A stretch of DNA of 64,000 nt from Hydrogenibacillus sp. (lineage in GTDB: Bacteria; Bacillota; Bacilli; Thermicanales; DSM-22653). Position 1 is the stretch's first letter. Each line of letters opens with the position of its first letter. Below the pieces are notes generated by a model. That model was not told where the DNA came from. It saw only the letters and a program-made list of their open reading frames with translations, and did not search any database. The position numbers were made by a program, and so were the translations under genes. Of this stretch, positions 5,568 to 13,808 are shown one piece after another. Location: positions 1 through 64,000 of the forward strand of contig JADBKT010000005.1 of the NCBI GenBank assembly GCA_014896255.1. Direction: 5' to 3'.

Positions 5568-6152
5568 TCAGGACGCCGCCGCGCCGTGCGATTCGGACGT
5601 TCGTTCGATCACGTGACGCAGTCGGACGTAAACCACCATGAACACGGCCGTCACGAGCCCGCCCTTGATCACGTTGAACGGCGCGACGAACGTCAGCACG
5701 AACGGCAGAACGTCCGCCCGATCCATCGGAAAACCGAGCAAGGTGATATACACCGGGAAGATGACCCAATAATTGGCGAGCGACATGAAGGCCGCCATGG
5801 CCAGCGTCCCTAAGAACAGTCCGCCGAAGAGCGCCTTGCCCGTCCGTCGGCGTCGATACACCGTCGACGTGATGACGACAAGCACCGAACCGGCCAAAAA
5901 GTTGGCCGCTTGTCCGACCGGGATGCCCGTTTCACTGCCCTTGAACAGATAATGCAAGACGTTCTTTAATCCTTCAACTCCGATGCCCGACCACGGACCG
6001 TACATCAAGGCTACGGCAAGCGCCGGAACTTCACTGAAATCGACTTTCAAAAACGATGGAAACGCCGGCAAAGGAAAATCAAAAAACTGCATGACAAACG
6101 CCAACGCTCCCATCATCGCCACCGTCACGCGACGAACCAACGGGCGATGCAT
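5568..6152 (-). CDS. ribU: Riboflavin ECF transporter S component
   Basis: Membrane-embedded substrate-binding subunit for riboflavin uptake, working with a shared EcfA/EcfA'/EcfT module encoded elsewhere. 194 aa with about six hydrophobic segments. An N-terminal GALAF stretch matches the small-residue motif S components use to dock EcfT. The ATG at 6152 has GGAAAGGAG seven bases upstream. The assignment is strongly supported by the FMN riboswitch directly in front. The transcript ends at the hairpin at 5510-5526, so it is monocistronic. Confidence 0.92.
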   Translation of the reverse strand: MHRPLVRRVTVAMMGALAFVMQFFDFPLPAFPSFLKVDFSEVPALAVALMYGPWSGIGVEGLKNVLHYLFKGSETGIPVGQAANFLAGSVLVVITSTVYRRRRTGKALFGGLFLGTLAMAAFMSLANYWVIFPVYITLLGFPMDRADVLPFVLTFVAPFNVIKGGLVTAVFMVVYVRLRHVIERTSESHGAAAS

Positions 6153-6167
6153 CGCCGAATCTCCTTT

Positions 6168-6309
6168 CCTTCTCCCATCCAGACTATACTGTCGGCTCTG
6201 GCTTCGCACCAGATCCTGCCGTAGGATACGGCTCGCGGGCTTATCGCCGGCGCATGGGCGCCGCGAATCACCGCCGGTCGGGAATTTCACCCTGCCCCGA
6301 AGGAAGTTT
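6168..6309 (-). promoter_or_regulatory. FMN riboswitch (RFN element)
   Basis: Minus strand leader with the conserved RFN blocks in order: CGGGGCAGGGTGAAATTCCC, GACCGGCGGT, AGCCCGCGAGC, GGCAGGATCTGGTG, GAAGCCAGAGCCGACAGT and ATAGTCTGGATGGGAGAAGG. The closing helix pairs CCTTC near 6300 with GAAGG near 6170. The ribU Shine-Dalgarno sequence GGAAAGGAG follows at once, so FMN binding could block translation as well as transcription. No separate terminator hairpin is obvious between the element and the gene. Confidence 0.95.
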
Positions 6310-6394: not shown

Positions 6395-7051
6395 TCAAAC
6401 GGCAAAGAAATGGTTGCCGATCTTCGCCACCACGGTGCGCGAACGGATCCAGGACGACGCTGTTTTTTGCGGGTTGTAGAAGAACAAGGCGCCGTGCGTC
6501 GGATCTTCGCCTCGAATGGCTGCGTACACGGCTCGGTATGCCGATGCGGGCGGAGAAAGACGCCAAATGAGGCCATTTTCGACCGACTCGAAGGCGCGCG
6601 GCTCGAAAATGATGCTCTCGACGGAGGAGGGAAACCCCGGATGATGCAGCCGGTTGAGCACGACGGCGGCCACCGCGACCTGCCCGGCATACGGTTCTCC
6701 GCCGGCTTCGGCCGCGACGAGGCGGGCCAACAGATCGATTTCCCGCGCGGTGAGCGTCGTGGCATACAGCTTTGACCATGTTTTCGGACCGACGATGCCG
6801 TCCACGGACAGACCGTAGGCGGCTTGAAAACGCCGGACCGCCCTGAGCGTCAACGGACCGAATTTTCCGTCCAGCGCGCCGCCGTATAGGCCCAGCTGAT
6901 CCAGCCGATGTTGCAGATCGTAGACATGTCCGACATCGGCGCCGTAGGTGAGCGTCGGTGCGGCGCGGGATTCGTCCGCTCCGCCGAAAAGCATATCGAA
7001 TGCGGCCACGATGATCGCCAAAAGCCCAAAGACCGTCCGTCGCCACGACAT
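6395..7051 (-). CDS. Spore cortex-lytic / cell-wall hydrolase (SleB family)
   Basis: Exported peptidoglycan hydrolase; SleB relatives degrade cortex during germination or act in mother-cell wall remodelling. 218 aa: signal peptide or membrane anchor at about 5-20, a peptidoglycan-binding domain at about 35-85 with typical LGLYGGALDGKFGPLT repeats, and a Hydrolase_2 domain from about 95. The expected catalytic glutamate is in VAAEAGGE, followed by the GQVAVAAVVLNR helix and the late FFYNP segment. The ATG at 7051 has AAGGAGGG nine bases upstream. No ypeB-like partner follows, so it could be CwlJ/YkvT-like in role rather than true SleB. Confidence 0.85.
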   Translation of the reverse strand: MSWRRTVFGLLAIIVAAFDMLFGGADESRAAPTLTYGADVGHVYDLQHRLDQLGLYGGALDGKFGPLTLRAVRRFQAAYGLSVDGIVGPKTWSKLYATTLTAREIDLLARLVAAEAGGEPYAGQVAVAAVVLNRLHHPGFPSSVESIIFEPRAFESVENGLIWRLSPPASAYRAVYAAIRGEDPTHGALFFYNPQKTASSWIRSRTVVAKIGNHFFAV

Positions 7052-7130
7052 GCGACATGCCCTCCTTTCGACATGTCCCAGTATACCGGACGGACGGCCG
7101 GGGCTTCGATGTAGTTTCTGGAAAGGGCGT

Positions 7131-8633
7131 CTAGAGGCGGTACACGCGACGTATTTTGTCCTCCAAGTAACGAAGCAGCGGTTCGACATCCGGAGCCCGC
7201 CCCGTCGCGCGTTCGAGCAGCTCCAGCGGATCGATCCGGTTGCCGTAAGCGTGAACGTGTTCCGTCATCCACGCGCGAATCGGGGCGAACTCGCCTTCGG
7301 CCACCAGCCGATCGAAGTCCGGAAGATCGCGGCGAAGCGCCTCATACAGCATGGCGGCGTAAATGTTGCCGAGGGCGTATGACGGGAAATAACCGAACAA
7401 CCCGGAGCTCCAGTGGACGTCCTGCAGCACGCCGCGGGCATCGTCGGGCGGCACGAGGCCGAGGAGCGTCTGCATCGACGCGTTCCACGCCTCCGGCAAG
7501 TCTTTCGCCTCCAGCGCTCCGCTGAACAGCTGCTTTTCCAGCTCATAGCGCAGGATAATGTGCAGGTTGTACGTCACCTCGTCGGCTTCGACGCGGATCA
7601 ACGACGGTTCAACAATGTTCACCGCCCGAAAAACGTCTTCCGCGTCGACACCGGCAAATACCTCGGGAAAAGCTTCGGCGAACAACGGCGTGGCGTAGGT
7701 CCAAAAGGCGAAGCTGCGCCCGATGATGTTCTCATAGAAGCGCGACTGGGATTCATGAACGCTCATCGAAACGGGCGACATCAGGCCATAGCGTTTTAAA
7801 TCCTGCGGCAGGCGCTGTTCGTAAATGCCGTGCCCGGCTTCATGGATCGTCGAAAAGAGGCTGGAGAAGGGGTCGTCTTCAAAATAGCGCGTCGTGATGC
7901 GCACGTCGGTCGGGGCAATGCCCACCGTAAACGGGTGCGCGCTTGTGTCCAGGCGGCCGTACGTGTAATCGAAGCCGAGCGCCTCGGAGATCTTGAGCGA
8001 AAGCGTTTTTTGCCGCTCGACGGCAAAAGATCCGCGCACGAAGGCCCGAGACGGCGCCTTCCCGCCTTTGAGCATCTCCAAAAGGCGGACGAGCCCTTCT
8101 TGCAGCGGGTGAAAGAGCGCGTCGACCTTTTCCACCGTCAATCCCGGTTCATAATGGTCGAGCAGCACGTCGTACGGATGCGCGCCGGCGCCCCAATAGT
8201 CGATGAATTCGCGGGTCATGGCGATGATTTCGGAAAGCGTCGGCAAAAACAGTTCAAAATCGTTCTTCTCCCGCGCTTCCCGCCAGATGGATTCGCCCTT
8301 GGCCACAAGGACGTGAAAGGCGCGGTAGCGCTCCGGCGGAATTTTCCTCAGGCGTTCGGCGTCGCGGTTCAAGACGACGACCATCCGCCGCTCCAATTCG
8401 GACAGCTCGGCCCCGGCCTCTTTGAGCACGGACAACGCTTCGAGAAAAACCGGCGCGGTGAGCAGCCGCTGCTGTTCGGCGCCGAAGTAGCCCATCGTCT
8501 CCGCCCGATCGGCGACGCCGCCTTTCGGCAACATCGTCTGCATGTCCCAGCCCATCAGCGCCGAGGCGGCGTTCAGATGAAATAGCGTATCGATGGTTTC
8601 AAAGACGATCTGTTTGGCCTGTTCGAGGTTCAT
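7131..8633 (-). CDS. Carboxypeptidase Taq (M32 metallopeptidase)
   Basis: Cytosolic zinc or cobalt carboxypeptidase that removes C-terminal residues from peptides. At 500 aa it matches the thermophilic M32 family. The zinc motif HEAGHGIYEQ lies in the middle of the chain and the family HESQSRFYEN segment follows about 30 residues later. The ATG at 8633 is preceded by AAGGAG. It starts 13 bases after the glycerate kinase stop on the same strand, so the two are probably cotranscribed, although no functional link is known. Confidence 0.93.
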   Translation of the reverse strand: MNLEQAKQIVFETIDTLFHLNAASALMGWDMQTMLPKGGVADRAETMGYFGAEQQRLLTAPVFLEALSVLKEAGAELSELERRMVVVLNRDAERLRKIPPERYRAFHVLVAKGESIWREAREKNDFELFLPTLSEIIAMTREFIDYWGAGAHPYDVLLDHYEPGLTVEKVDALFHPLQEGLVRLLEMLKGGKAPSRAFVRGSFAVERQKTLSLKISEALGFDYTYGRLDTSAHPFTVGIAPTDVRITTRYFEDDPFSSLFSTIHEAGHGIYEQRLPQDLKRYGLMSPVSMSVHESQSRFYENIIGRSFAFWTYATPLFAEAFPEVFAGVDAEDVFRAVNIVEPSLIRVEADEVTYNLHIILRYELEKQLFSGALEAKDLPEAWNASMQTLLGLVPPDDARGVLQDVHWSSGLFGYFPSYALGNIYAAMLYEALRRDLPDFDRLVAEGEFAPIRAWMTEHVHAYGNRIDPLELLERATGRAPDVEPLLRYLEDKIRRVYRL

Positions 8634-8646
8634 CTTCGATCTCCTT

Positions 8647-9795
8647 TCAGGCTTTCAGGAGACGCGCGGCGCGCATCGTCCGAAACAATTCGCGCGCTGT
8701 TCGATACAGCCGATCTTCCGCGTCCTCGGGCGCGAGCGGCGCCTTGCCGTCGTCGCTCACCGTCTGCCACATGCCGTCAAATCGGTTCGACAGCGCTTCC
8801 CATCCTTCCCCCAGTCGTCCGGAGAGGAGTACCGCCGGCCGCCCGAGCCGGCGGGCGGTTTCGGCCACGAACAGCGGGACCTTGCCCATGGCCGTCTGCC
8901 GATCGGTCTTACCTTCGCCGGTGACAACGACGTTCGCCGCAGAGATCGCTCGCTCGAGGCCGACGATCGAGGCGACGCCTTCCGCGCCGGGGACGAGGGC
9001 GGCGCCGACGAGCGCAAAGGCAAATCCGAGGCCGCCGGCGGCACCGGCGCCGCAGCGCCGGATCAACGCCTCGGCCGCCGGTCCGGCGACCTGTTCGGCA
9101 TAGCGTCTCATGGCCGCGTCAAGCGGCGCGACGATCTCCGGCGCCAGCCCCTTTTGCGGTCCGAAGACGACCGTGGCGCCGTTCGGACCGACGAGCGGCG
9201 CGGCGACATCGGTCCAGACCGTGAACGTCAAATCGCGGACGCGCTCCAGCGCCGGGGCCGTATCCGACCGGGACAGATGCAACAGGCTTTCGGCAAACGG
9301 CGGGAGCGGACGCCCGGCGGCATCCCAAAAGCGCGCGCCGAGCGCGGCGAGCATCCCGAGCCCGCCGTCGTTCGTCAGGCTGCCGCCGAGCCCGATCCAA
9401 AACCGCCGAAAGCCCATCGCCTTGAGTCGAACGATCATCTGTCCGAGGCCGAACGTCGAGCGGCGAAGAACCGGACCTGCCGCCTCCGCGGCGCTTGCGC
9501 CGGCGCCGACGACCTCGGCGCTCTCGATGACCGCCACCTGTTCACCGTCCGCTTCGACGACGCCGTACGGCACCGTTCGCGGGCGCAAGGACGGTCCTTC
9601 GACGACGAGGGTCTCCCGCCTGCCGCCGCGGGCGGAAAGGACCGCCTCCAGCGTTCCCTCCCCGCCGTCGGCCATCGGCAACAGAACCGCCGCGGCTTCC
9701 GGCCAGACGTCATCGAGGGCGCGGGCCGTCGCCTCTGCCGCCCGGCGGGCGGTCAGCGTGCCTTTGAACTTGTCCGGCGCGATCAACACGCGCAT
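8647..9795 (-). CDS. Glycerate kinase (GlxK/GarK family)
   Basis: Phosphorylates D-glycerate, usually to 2-phosphoglycerate in this family, feeding glycolysis. About 382 aa. N-terminal PDKFKGTL is the family hallmark, followed by PMADGGEGTLEA, GLGGSLTNDGGLGML and the late GEGKTD motif. The ATG at 9795 has GAGGG six bases upstream; an ATG two codons earlier lacks spacing. It heads a two-gene unit with carboxypeptidase Taq and is divergent from the synthetase-like gene at 9929. No glyoxylate or glycerate uptake gene is adjacent. Confidence 0.93.
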   Translation of the reverse strand: MRVLIAPDKFKGTLTARRAAEATARALDDVWPEAAAVLLPMADGGEGTLEAVLSARGGRRETLVVEGPSLRPRTVPYGVVEADGEQVAVIESAEVVGAGASAAEAAGPVLRRSTFGLGQMIVRLKAMGFRRFWIGLGGSLTNDGGLGMLAALGARFWDAAGRPLPPFAESLLHLSRSDTAPALERVRDLTFTVWTDVAAPLVGPNGATVVFGPQKGLAPEIVAPLDAAMRRYAEQVAGPAAEALIRRCGAGAAGGLGFAFALVGAALVPGAEGVASIVGLERAISAANVVVTGEGKTDRQTAMGKVPLFVAETARRLGRPAVLLSGRLGEGWEALSNRFDGMWQTVSDDGKAPLAPEDAEDRLYRTARELFRTMRAARLLKA

Positions 9796-9928
9796 CGGCA
9801 TCCCTCTTCATCATCCCTCTTCATAAGATAAGCATAAGACAGGCGCACGGGCGAATACGGTAAAAGCGACGCGCTCCGCATGCCGAGCGCACCTTCACCA
9901 TCCATCCGACGGAAAGGAAGCGAACCCG

Positions 9929-11866
9929 ATGGACGCCTTTGCCGGCATCGTCTTGTTCCGTCGCGCGCGTACGCCGCAGGCGCTTGCCGACGAAGCGCGG
10001 AACATGATCCGCCACCTTGCGGCGCGCATCGAACGATCCGCCCCCAAGATCCGGACCCGCGCGGACGCCCGCGCGGCCGTCGCCTTCGTCGCCCATCCCG
10101 ATCGCCCGCTCGTCACCTTGGTTGAAGCGGGAACGTCGACGTCTGAAACGCAAACGACCGGCGGCCTGCCCCCATCCGCCCGCTGGACCGTTTGGCTCGG
10201 CGCCGCGGCGGGATCGGGCGCCGTCCCGATCGATCCGCTGAACGCGGATCAGGACACCCACGGGTTGTGGCTTACGGCGGGCAGCGATTTTGCCTGCGTC
10301 GCCTGGAACGGAGAGACGCGGACGCTCCTTCTGGCCCGGGATCCGCTCGGTTACCGGACCATTTGGCTTTATCGCATGGCGGACGGATACGCGTTCGCCT
10401 CCGATCTCGCCGCCTTGTACGCCCACCCGGCGTTCAGGCCGCGCCTCGGTCCGGACGGCCTGAACGCCCTTTTGGCCCTCGGACCGTATCGCCCGCCCGA
10501 GAGCGGGATCCTGGAAGACATGTCCGCCGTCCGCCCCGGGACGGTTCTTCGGCTCACCCCCACCGGACAAACGACGACGGTGTACTGGTCGCTCCCCCTT
10601 GCCGGCATCGCGGACACCGGGAACGACCCGGCCGGGGCAAATCTCGACCTTGTGAACGGGGCGTTGACGGACATTCGGGCGATCGCCGCTTTGGTCCGCG
10701 AACGGCTCACGGAAGCCGTCCGCTCGTGCGCCGGTAGTGAACAACCGGCGGCCTTCCTTTCAGGGGGGATCGATTCCAGCGCCATCGTCGCCCTGCTCAC
10801 CCGGCAAGGTTTCGGACCGGTGCGCACGTATTCGCTCGAGTACGAAGACAATGATCGCTACTTTGCGGCCGATGCGCTCACACCGGAACGCGACGCGGCG
10901 TTTATCGGAGAGATGGTGCGTTTTGCCGGAAGCCGTCATACGGTCGTCACGCTCCGCGTCGATGCGTTGGTTGACGTCCTTAAGACCGCCCTATGGGCGC
11001 GCGGCGTGCCGGGCATGGTCGACATCGACGGCGCGCTTTTGCTTTTTTCCAGCGTGGTGGCCAAATCCGAACGCCTCGTCCTCTCCGGAGAGGGCGCCGA
11101 TGAATTGTTCGGCGGCTATCCGTGGTTTTTCGACGAAACGGCGCTCCGCCTCGCCACTTATCCTTGGTCACGGCAGCTCGAGCGACGGCTTTCGTATTTG
11201 ACGAAAGAGGCCCGTCGGCGGCTCCAGCCGGAAGCCTTCGTGCGGGCAACCTGGCATCAGGCGTTGGCCGAAATCGCGCCACCGCATTTTCGCCCGCCGT
11301 TAACCCCCTTCTCGGCTCGTGATGCCCGGACCGCCGGAATACCCGCCGAAAGCGCCGCCGGGTCGTTCGAGACGACGATGCGCATCATGGCGTACGTCAA
11401 CTTGACCCGCTGGGCGGGCGTTCTCCTGGAGCGCAAAGATCGGATGACGCGCCTGTTCGGCCTCGACGCGCGACTGCCGTTTATCGACCGCGCACTGGTC
11501 GAAACCGTGTGGCCGTTGCCGTGGGCGGTGAAAGCCGTCGGGCCTGCGCCCAAGGGACTTCTTCGCGAGGCGCTCCAAGATCTCCTGCCGGACGCCGTCC
11601 GGTTGCGCAAAAAAAATCCCTTTCCAAAGACGTTTCATCCCCGCTACATCGCGCGCATCCAGGCCATGGCCCGAAATCGGCTACAAGATCCTTCGACGCC
11701 CCTTTTCGAGTGGATCGACCGCACGGCCTTCACCCGGACGGTCGAGACGCTTTCCGGGGGCGAGCCGTTTCCGTGGTTCGGCCAGCTCCTCGGCGCGCCG
11801 CAGTTCGTCGCCTACCTGCTCACCGTCGACGAGTGGCTGCGCGCGCTCGATCCGAAGATCGTCTAA
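9929..11866 (+). CDS. Asparagine-synthetase-like protein lacking glutaminase residues
   Basis: 645 aa, built like AsnB/AsnO: N-terminal Ntn domain (1-200) and C-terminal ATP-PPi domain. The synthetase half looks active: SGGIDSS PP-loop at 278-284, SGEGADELFGGY at 386-397, and LPFIDRALVE and RKKNPFPKT further on. The glutaminase half is eroded. The protein begins MDAFAGIV where AsnB has MCG, so the Cys nucleophile is Asp, and neither HRGPD nor NGEIYN is present; only an LLARDPLGYR strand remains. The ATG has GGAAAGGAAG upstream and no alternative start restores a cysteine. It may use free ammonia or another amine, or join other acids. No lasso-peptide precursor or B protein is nearby. The product is unassigned. 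Confidence 0.75.
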   Translation: MDAFAGIVLFRRARTPQALADEARNMIRHLAARIERSAPKIRTRADARAAVAFVAHPDRPLVTLVEAGTSTSETQTTGGLPPSARWTVWLGAAAGSGAVPIDPLNADQDTHGLWLTAGSDFACVAWNGETRTLLLARDPLGYRTIWLYRMADGYAFASDLAALYAHPAFRPRLGPDGLNALLALGPYRPPESGILEDMSAVRPGTVLRLTPTGQTTTVYWSLPLAGIADTGNDPAGANLDLVNGALTDIRAIAALVRERLTEAVRSCAGSEQPAAFLSGGIDSSAIVALLTRQGFGPVRTYSLEYEDNDRYFAADALTPERDAAFIGEMVRFAGSRHTVVTLRVDALVDVLKTALWARGVPGMVDIDGALLLFSSVVAKSERLVLSGEGADELFGGYPWFFDETALRLATYPWSRQLERRLSYLTKEARRRLQPEAFVRATWHQALAEIAPPHFRPPLTPFSARDARTAGIPAESAAGSFETTMRIMAYVNLTRWAGVLLERKDRMTRLFGLDARLPFIDRALVETVWPLPWAVKAVGPAPKGLLREALQDLLPDAVRLRKKNPFPKTFHPRYIARIQAMARNRLQDPSTPLFEWIDRTAFTRTVETLSGGEPFPWFGQLLGAPQFVAYLLTVDEWLRALDPKIV

Positions 11867-11924: not shown

Positions 11925-12014
11925 AGAATCGGAATCCTCACAAGAAGACGAACCGACGGACGCCCTTCCGAACTCAACAAATCACACAACAACGGCTGTG
12001 AAAGGATGGATCCG

Positions 12015-13808
12015 ATGGCGCTTTCGCTCACCTGGGATCTGGAGTCGATCTTTGTCGGCGGCCCGACCGGCGAACCTTTTCAACGGTTTGTGGCGGATCT
12101 CGTGCGTGATATCGAGGCGCTCAAGTCCGTGCTGAATGAAGAGCCGGTGCCGCGGGACGATGCCGGCGCCGAGCGGCTGTACGGACATTTGAACGCCCTG
12201 CAGGCCCTCGGCACCCGGCTGCGCGAAGCCGGCGCCTACCTCAGCTGCCTGACGGCGCAAAACGTCGACGATGAGACGGCCAAGCGGGAAAGCACGCGCC
12301 TTTCGTCCGTATCCGCCGCCTATGCCAAAGCCCTCATCCGCTTCGATGCCCTTCTCCTGGGGCTTTCGGACGACGTCTTTCAATCCTTAAAGGCGCGGGC
12401 TCAAGCGGACGGTCTCGACTTCCTCCTCGAAGAGCGGAGGCTCATGGCGCGGGAGCGGATGGCGCCGGAGCTGGAGGCGCTGGAGGCCGATCTCGCCGTG
12501 GACGGTTATCACGCGTGGGGCGAACTGTACAACACGATCGTCGGCCGTCTCAACGTCGAGGTCACCATCGGCGGCCAGACGAAGCGCTTGTCCGTCGGCC
12601 AGGCGTTCAATCTGCTCAGCCATCCGGATCGCGCCGTGCGCAAGCAGGTGTTTGAACGCTACGACGCCGCATGGGAGTCGGTAGCCGATCTGAACGCCGA
12701 AGTGCTGAATCACTTGAGCGGCTATCGCCTGGCGGTCTATCGCCACCGCGGCTGGGACGACGTGCTCCACGAACCGCTTCGCAACAACCGCATGCGGCGC
12801 GAAACGCTGGAAGCGATGTGGGCGGCCGTCGAAAAGGGCAAACCTGCGCTGGTGCGTTACCTTCAACAAAAAGCCCGCCTGCTCGGGCTGGACGCATTGG
12901 CGTTTTACGACGTCGACGCCCCGGTGGGAGAAGCGGGCGCGCACATCCCGTACGAAGACGGCGCGGCCCTCATCATCGAGCAGTTCGCCACCTTCAGCGC
13001 CGATCTCGCCGATCTGGCCGAGCGGGCATTTCGCGAGCGGTGGATCGAGGCCGAAGATCGCCCCGGCAAACGCCCGGGCGGATTTTGCACGAGCTTTCCG
13101 CTCAAACAGCAGTCGCGCATCTTCATGACCTACTCCGGCACGCCGGACAACGTCTCCACCCTGGCGCACGAGCTCGGGCACGCTTATCACCAGCACGTCA
13201 TGAACGATCTGCCGGCCATGGCCCAGCGTTACGCGATGAACGTCGCCGAGACCGCCTCCACCTTTGCCGAGCAGATCGTAAGCGAGGCGTTGATCGCCAA
13301 AGCCGACGAGGGAGCGCGCCTTCGGCTTTTGGACGAGAAACTGTCCCGCGCCGTCGCCTTCTTCATGAACATCCACGCCCGTTTCCTGTTCGAGACGCGC
13401 TTTTATGAAGCCCGCAAGTCCACTCCGGTGCCGCGGGAGACGCTGGGCGCGCTCATGTTGGAAGCGCAGCGGGAAGCCTATCATGGCGCGCTCGGCGAGT
13501 GGCACGCCAATTTCTGGCAGTCCAAATTGCATTTTTATTTGACGCGCACGCCGTTTTACAACTTCCCATATACTTTCGGCTATCTGTTCAGCACCGGCTT
13601 GTACGCCATGGCCAAAGCCGAAGGACCGTCGTTTGCCGACCGTTATGTGGCGCTGTTGCGCGACACGGGGCGCATGACGGTCGAAGCGCTGGCGGAAAAA
13701 CATCTCGGCGTCGATCTCACCCGAGCGGACTTCTGGGAACAGGCGGTGGACGAGGCGACGCGCGACGTGGAGACGTTCATCCGGTTGGCCGAACGGCAAA
13801 ACGGCTGA
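12015..13808 (+). CDS. pepF: Oligoendopeptidase F family (M3B) peptidase
   Basis: Cytosolic zinc endopeptidase that cuts short peptides, important for peptide turnover. 597 aa from the chosen start. The zinc-binding HELGHAYHQH motif lies at about residue 380, with the conserved downstream segment FAEQIVSEALI that supplies the third ligand. The ATG at 12015 has GAAAGGATGG upstream; an ATG three codons earlier overlaps that site, and the open frame to 11892 covers the promoter. It ends in a strong terminator. Confidence 0.92.
   Translation: MALSLTWDLESIFVGGPTGEPFQRFVADLVRDIEALKSVLNEEPVPRDDAGAERLYGHLNALQALGTRLREAGAYLSCLTAQNVDDETAKRESTRLSSVSAAYAKALIRFDALLLGLSDDVFQSLKARAQADGLDFLLEERRLMARERMAPELEALEADLAVDGYHAWGELYNTIVGRLNVEVTIGGQTKRLSVGQAFNLLSHPDRAVRKQVFERYDAAWESVADLNAEVLNHLSGYRLAVYRHRGWDDVLHEPLRNNRMRRETLEAMWAAVEKGKPALVRYLQQKARLLGLDALAFYDVDAPVGEAGAHIPYEDGAALIIEQFATFSADLADLAERAFRERWIEAEDRPGKRPGGFCTSFPLKQQSRIFMTYSGTPDNVSTLAHELGHAYHQHVMNDLPAMAQRYAMNVAETASTFAEQIVSEALIAKADEGARLRLLDEKLSRAVAFFMNIHARFLFETRFYEARKSTPVPRETLGALMLEAQREAYHGALGEWHANFWQSKLHFYLTRTPFYNFPYTFGYLFSTGLYAMAKAEGPSFADRYVALLRDTGRMTVEALAEKHLGVDLTRADFWEQAVDEATRDVETFIRLAERQNG

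Follow-up and report, generated by a model that had tools for sequence, protein, structure and literature searches.

What does an asparagine synthetase homologue use as its nitrogen donor once the glutaminase half has lost its catalytic motifs? For nucleotides, amino sugars and amides, the usual view is that nitrogen comes almost universally from glutamine. The question arises from the gene for P0001 in the window, the whole 64,000-nucleotide stretch of Hydrogenibacillus DNA that was analysed. The open reading frame occupies exactly 9929-11866 of the forward strand, begins with ATG, encodes 645 residues and has a high GC3. Its N terminus reads MDAFAGIVLF, where relatives have M-C-G-(I/F/V)-x-G. 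The initial annotation had called the glutaminase half dead, with Cys changed to Asp and the HRGPD and NGEIYN motifs gone, and had seen no other start that would restore them; alignment and frame search agree with it. MCG, RGPD and NG(E/A)(L/I)(Y/F)N are absent from the three forward frames of 9650-10450, and a 34-residue in-frame upstream extension contains no MCG. We rejected an alternative start or frameshift, as no forward frame gives back MCG and the change is common to orthologues. Sequencing error was likewise rejected, because in the H. schlegelii orthologue (55% identical) the frame is open and starts MDAFSG, and the Cys is also lacking from three more family members. The gene and its parts are as follows.

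9911-9918, forward strand: Shine-Dalgarno-like GGAAAGGA ahead of the P0001 ATG (sequence)
9929-11866, forward strand: P0001, AsnO-type asparagine synthetase of 645 aa whose glutaminase half is inactive (ORF and translation, Pfam, PDB match, AlphaFold)
9929-10285, forward strand: degenerate glutamine-binding half of the Ntn glutaminase domain, residues 1-119 (alignment; Cys2 to Asp, RGPD, RRL, NGE and D motifs lost)
10286-10573, forward strand: second Ntn half (synthetase interface), conserved, residues 120-215 (identity 0.65 to H. schlegelii; partial GATase_7 match at 120-164)
10676-11863, forward strand: synthetase domain, residues 250-645 (Pfam 256-611; invariant catalytic columns)
10760-10780, forward strand: SGGIDSS pyrophosphate loop, residues 278-284 (aligned with E. 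coli AsnB S234-D238)
11084-11119, forward strand: SGEGADELFGGY, residues 386-397, predicted Asp-binding acidic cluster (E388, D391 and E392 align with human E364, D367 and E368)
11606-11629, forward strand: RKKNPFPK (K562 aligns with E. coli AsnB K449)

Profile searches separated the two halves of the protein. Pfam Asn_synthase matched as a full domain (225 bits, 2.8e-66), and GATase_7 aligned only over its final third, profile positions 77-122 of 123, at 26.6 bits (cut-off 25). On TIGR01536, the model for glutamine-hydrolysing asparagine synthase, P0001 scored 219.6, below the curated cut-off of 267.1; the intact syntenic AsnO of G005, a genome from another family of the same order, passed at 501.4. 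The N-terminal Cys, R49, N74-G75-E76 and D98 of TIGR01536-type enzymes are lost, with Asp in place of Cys2. With the Cys and the glutamine motifs missing, P0001 would not use glutamine as AsnB does, as had been proposed. Retention of the ATP and acyl-adenylate motifs, also claimed earlier, was borne out: SGGIDSS and the acidic cluster were located and aligned with AsnB, R502 is the equivalent of E. coli AsnB R387, and the residues expected of an asparagine synthase with any donor (SGGIDSS, E388/D391/E392, R502 and K562) are in place. In human ASNS, ammonia-dependent activity requires E364, D367 and E368, through which the aspartyl amino group is bound (PMC6748925). P0001 also carries the AsnO-type motifs RxxPGMxDID, SGEGADE and RKKxPFPK, with homology across the whole synthetase. 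Its best PDB match was TsnB9 (7YLZ, 6.6e-50), followed by E. coli AsnB (1CT9). The AlphaFold model (pTM 0.88, mean pLDDT 85) has an Ntn-like N domain, with the strands of residues 120-215 above a pLDDT of 90, and Foldseek ranked TsnB9, E. coli AsnB, beta-lactam synthetase and human ASNS in that order, with carbapenam synthetase also a structural neighbour. P0001 missed the cut-offs of the lasso cyclase model NF033535 (73.6 vs. 525 bits) and the macrolactam cyclase model NF033561 (39.5 vs. 300 bits).

The surroundings of the gene identify it further.

5568-6290, reverse strand: ECF transporter S component (syntenic context common to G005)
6395-7189, reverse strand: SleB-like spore cortex hydrolase (syntenic context common to G005)
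7131-8633, reverse strand: carboxypeptidase Taq (M32), syntenic context (neighbourhood comparison)
8647-9801, reverse strand: glycerate kinase, divergent neighbour (Pfam Gly_kinase)
12006-13808, forward strand: oligoendopeptidase F (M3), downstream (syntenic context common to Carbobacillus and G005)

No precursor peptide, protease or modification gene for a lasso or macrolactam product adjoins P0001, whose neighbours are the glycerate kinase, peptidases, SleB, ECF-S and Yui proteins; the earlier remark that no recognised biosynthetic partner lies beside it thus held, none being obvious among these genes. The best Bacilli matches of P0001 are AsnO-type (35-43% identical over residues 120-640), and 172 of the 187 AsnO-family loci surveyed keep the glutamine motifs. 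Five genomes represent the family: G000 (the window's own Hydrogenibacillus genome, 92.5% complete), G001 (H. schlegelii MA48), G003 (Ca. Carbobacillus altaicus), and G002 and G004 (genus g2, presumed Brockia). In none of the five does AsnO retain Cys2 or the other glutamine motifs, the N termini reading MDAFAG, MDAFSG, MYAFCG or MNVYAVADF(S/A)G. Every one of these five reading frames is open, with conserved catalytic residues and a ribosome-binding site; in the presumed Brockia copies, LSGEGADELFGG is changed to LTGEGADETFAG. The dead AsnO clade is monophyletic (support 1.0, FastTree, synthetase domain), and its loci share varying subsets of SleB, the M32 peptidase, glycerate kinase, PepF, YuiB/C/D, NDH-2 and MqnC. 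In G005, the AsnO found between ECF-S/SleB and PepF, the interval that P0001 occupies, is intact. P0001 is the orthologue of AsnO by genomic position, and the presence of the dead form in the slot of the intact one indicates that the glutaminase died in place, in a family ancestor.

We then compared dead pairs with intact AsnO pairs of equal synthetase identity. Over residues 1-119, intact pairs had a mean identity of 0.51-0.56 and a minimum of 36-41%; the P0001/H. schlegelii pair stood at 41%, its class minimum, and the Carbobacillus pairs at 19% and 20%, under the intact-pair minimum (0.36-0.37). Residues 120-215, which pack on the synthetase, were 38-65% identical in dead pairs. Sequence has changed quickly in the glutamine-binding half, and both the interface half and the synthetase have been conserved. 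Synthetase dN/dS was 0.25-0.40 in dead pairs compared with 0.04-0.14 in other Bacilli, purifying yet looser, and neighbour genes of the window/H. schlegelii pair gave 0.13-0.41, overlapping the synthetase values. The survey also returned AsnO genes with a missing or degraded glutaminase in other lineages.

L051:7489-9360, forward strand: separate AsnO glutaminase loss (G032, where an intact copy is also present)
L119:5509-7335, forward strand: separate AsnO glutaminase loss
L117:290-2014, forward strand, and L114: separate AsnO glutaminase loss (one lineage)

To these L161 and L172 (G213 and G204) belong in part, with MCG retained and RGPD/NGELYN degraded, a possible intermediate stage. Loss in at least three or four further lineages suggests that AsnO tolerates it readily.

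Within the family, the loss extends to other native amidotransferases.

L290:8319-9941 (G000, contig C27), reverse strand: native CTP synthase, catalytic Cys replaced (sequence); likewise L264, L247, L293 and L270
L287:11884-13221 (G002), reverse strand, and L291:350-2029 (Carbobacillus), forward strand: PurF with Cys changed to Gly (GGLFA) and glutamine-site motifs lost (sequence)
L288:695-2002 (G002), reverse strand, and L280:826-2133 (G004), reverse strand: GuaA without recognisable N-terminal glutaminase domain (sequence)

The AsnB-type paralogue also lacks the Cys in the family (MGGLWG, MSGLWG or no counterpart); outside it, 10 of 10 relatives read begin (M/V)CG and have intact motifs. 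The G000 copy (L034:7396-9159, contig C5, reverse strand) is the only other Asn_synthase homologue of that genome, has no MCG start and may be related to the AsnB that amidates diaminopimelate. The presumed Brockia genomes contain a third group of the AsnB superfamily (L045, L040 and L046, from G004 and G002), which is devoid of the N-terminal Cys motif as well. In native CTP synthase (PyrG), GICLG has become GIGLG in G000, G001 and G003 and ALGYG in G002 and G004, where the His of FHPE is lost too. PurF has GGLFA for CG(V/I)FG in G002, G003 and G004, and the native GuaA of G002 and G004 is a full synthetase whose glutaminase domain is unrecognisable. Family NadE is without a nitrilase domain, and TrpE and MurT are partnerless in the sampled DNA. 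Class-I glutaminase matches number 2, 2 and 1 in G000, G002 and G003 compared with 9 each in G001, G004 and G005; the two in G000 are the Cys-less CTP synthase and a C26-like hydrolase. Curated HMMs found neither GlmS nor PurF in G000, and no intact class-II glutaminase was found there. A 33-bit GlmS match in G000 was discarded, as it reads as a MurQ-like protein. Sampling of 929 kb of G002 (about 55%) and 484 kb of G000 (about 25%) turned up no native glnA.

The extra matches of G001 and G004 sit on common segments with 83-94% nucleotide identity (91.6% across the longest block).

G001 (H. schlegelii), contigs C17 and C18, 63 kb in total (L274-L277): island segments (sequence comparison)
G004, end of C3, C7 and C11 (L281, L282 and L284): island segments (sequence comparison)

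Besides glutamine synthetase, GOGAT and urease, this island encodes some dozen glutamine-dependent enzymes in intact form. Its genes include GlnA, GltB, AsnO (with MCG), GlmS, GuaA, PurQ/L, PurF, CarAB, HisH/F and PdxT together with intact PyrG, TrpEG, glutamine-type NadE, MurT/GatD and urease (some names assigned by reading, not by HMM). It also encodes an ABC transporter resembling those for branched-chain amino acids, which probably carries urea. Its GC content is below that of native segments, and a transposase-like ORF lies at one island contig end. Its AsnO-GlmS-GltB stretch matches a locus in G032, a genome from a distant family, at 80% identity, and island AsnO groups with that family (FastTree), which together point to horizontal transfer. 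In G004, the junction between island and native DNA falls within one contig that is collinear with G002 up to a break at 220.5-222.4 kb; contamination as the origin of the intact copies was rejected on this continuity with the native chromosome. Close relatives with intact motifs, which the initial annotation had named as evidence that would overturn its reading, occur only outside the family; the intact AsnO genes of H. schlegelii and G004 are horizontally shared island genes, separate from the dead orthologues.

AsnO follows sporulation among relatives. At E ≤ 1e-45, it was present in 47 of 50 spoIVA-positive and none of 11 spoIVA-negative genomes (61 relatives; Fisher p = 9e-10, which kinship makes optimistic). 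In B. subtilis, asnO belongs to the sigma-E/sigma-K genes (PMC517825), and sporulation of the asnO mutant falls to 0% (PMC4703394). The protein rescues an E. coli Asn auxotroph and does not amidate diaminopimelate (PMC8554201). G000, G002 and G003 keep spoIVA and have no intact AsnO. A simple consensus search recovered no sigma-E promoter upstream of P0001 and, among intact AsnO genes, none above chance. A profile search found no AsnA in G000. The same genome has no AsnRS above cut-off and does have GatB, and Asn-tRNA is thus probably made by transamidation; asparagine from P0001 would serve another purpose, and the need for free asparagine in G000 is not obvious.

Motif loss in the sequences, its conservation and syntenic setting across the family, and the island are observed. 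From them we infer that P0001 is probably a sporulation-linked asparagine synthetase fed by ammonia, and that its lineage largely gave up glutamine as nitrogen donor. Its intact synthetase site would use ATP to convert aspartate into beta-aspartyl-AMP, which would then be attacked by dissolved free ammonia, not by ammonia channelled from glutamine, to give asparagine; the N-terminal Ntn domain would be left merely as a scaffold packing on the synthetase. Glutaminase loss in several unrelated enzymes makes free ammonia as donor the simplest single cause. Among the observations that weigh against this reading are the raised synthetase dN/dS and the altered LSGEGADELFGG of the presumed Brockia copies. 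In Hydrogenibacillus, Brockia and Carbobacillus, native AsnO, AsnB-type, PyrG, PurF and GuaA enzymes would have lost glutaminase function and the remaining class-I and class-II glutaminases would have been lost outright. Later, some members would have regained glutamine-dependent enzymes, glutamine synthetase, GOGAT and urease through the mobile island. On balance, we lean toward this broader reading, in which the family gave up glutamine for biosynthesis, the synthetase halves run on free ammonia, and the island (about 63 kb in H. schlegelii) re-installs a glutamine economy in some members. Ammonia-rich thermal habitats may have played a role in this physiology.

The initial annotation had left open ammonia, another amine, or a cyclase or ligase activity. 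The first is now strongly favoured by the Asp-binding cluster, the AsnO pocket and the parallel losses, and the cyclase or ligase option fared poorly, with models far under their cut-offs. P0001 could still have taken on a new role as a ligase that forms amides or lactams by joining another acid to an amine nucleophile, as in beta-lactam synthetase, carbapenam synthetase and lasso cyclases: a dead glutaminase with a live adenylation domain is the hallmark of these enzymes, two of which are among its structural neighbours, and the hydroxyamidotransferase TsnB9 is among the relatives with the AsnO pocket. We regard this as unlikely, given the retained acidic cluster and the lack of a surrounding biosynthetic cluster, and a private change of substrate would leave the loss of glutaminase in several unrelated amidotransferases unexplained. 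We are equally doubtful that P0001 is a decaying gene or idle pseudoenzyme left after replacement by intact AsnO. The island copies in H. schlegelii and G004 and the raised dN/dS of the dead clade would fit such decay, but the three spoIVA-bearing genomes without an intact copy, the conserved open frames, catalytic residues and ribosome-binding sites, and the age of the dead clade (34% identity between genera), far greater than that of the island (91% nucleotide identity), speak against it.

Split glutaminase/synthetase pairs are known, as in archaeal GMP synthetase and GatD/MurT, and with this precedent a separate glutaminase might supply P0001 with ammonia in trans, leaving the pathway glutamine-dependent. 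One uncharacterised class-I-like match is left in G000, and no result points to a partner; considering the identity of the two class-I matches, the lack of an intact class-II enzyme and a neighbourhood free of glutaminases, we give this little credence. Least probable of all, and by our estimate very improbable, is that the genomes poor in glutamine enzymes belong to auxotrophs or are incomplete assemblies, with glutaminase decay as general streamlining and no switch to ammonia. PurF and GlmS are indeed wholly missing from G000 at its level of completeness, but G002 keeps the synthetase halves of GuaA, PurF, PyrG, NadE, TrpE and PurL, the Cys is replaced inside an otherwise intact PyrG in three genomes, and a 1.69-Mb B. 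lithotrophica genome is described as chemolithoautotrophic (PMC5928048).

Several known systems lie close to P0001. With B. subtilis AsnO/YisO, of a subfamily widespread in spore-forming Bacilli, it shares subfamily and synthetase pocket but not the glutaminase Cys, Arg, NGE and Asp motifs, and its glutamine-binding half is hyper-divergent. E. coli AsnB and human ASNS have the same two-domain fold, SGGxDS loop and E348/D351, R387 and K449 equivalents and can use ammonia as well; P0001, in contrast, has no working glutaminase and is about 15% identical across the fold match. The overall reaction predicted from its sequence is that of the ammonia-dependent E. coli AsnA, whose aaRS-like fold is unrelated. 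TsnB9, the best solved relative by both sequence and fold, transfers hydroxylamine in trichostatin synthesis, whereas no such cluster lies at P0001. Beta-lactam and carbapenam synthetases and lasso and macrolactam cyclases are AsnB-superfamily members with inactive glutaminase domains, like P0001, but they use an intramolecular amine nucleophile and sit in biosynthetic clusters. That an amidotransferase family may work with either glutamine or ammonia has a precedent in ammonia-type NadE (PMC3376133). That case is a single enzyme family, whereas in the Hydrogenibacillus family several unrelated families changed in one lineage.

Our literature search found no paper describing a family-wide switch from glutamine to ammonia, which to our knowledge is undescribed. 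If the reading is true, a free-living lineage with parallel loss of glutaminases would demonstrate that cells can do without the glutamine economy, and would offer naturally ammonia-only forms of several textbook enzymes. A complete nitrogen-donor system carried on a mobile element would likewise come to light, and the role of AsnO in sporulation would become testable without glutamine chemistry.
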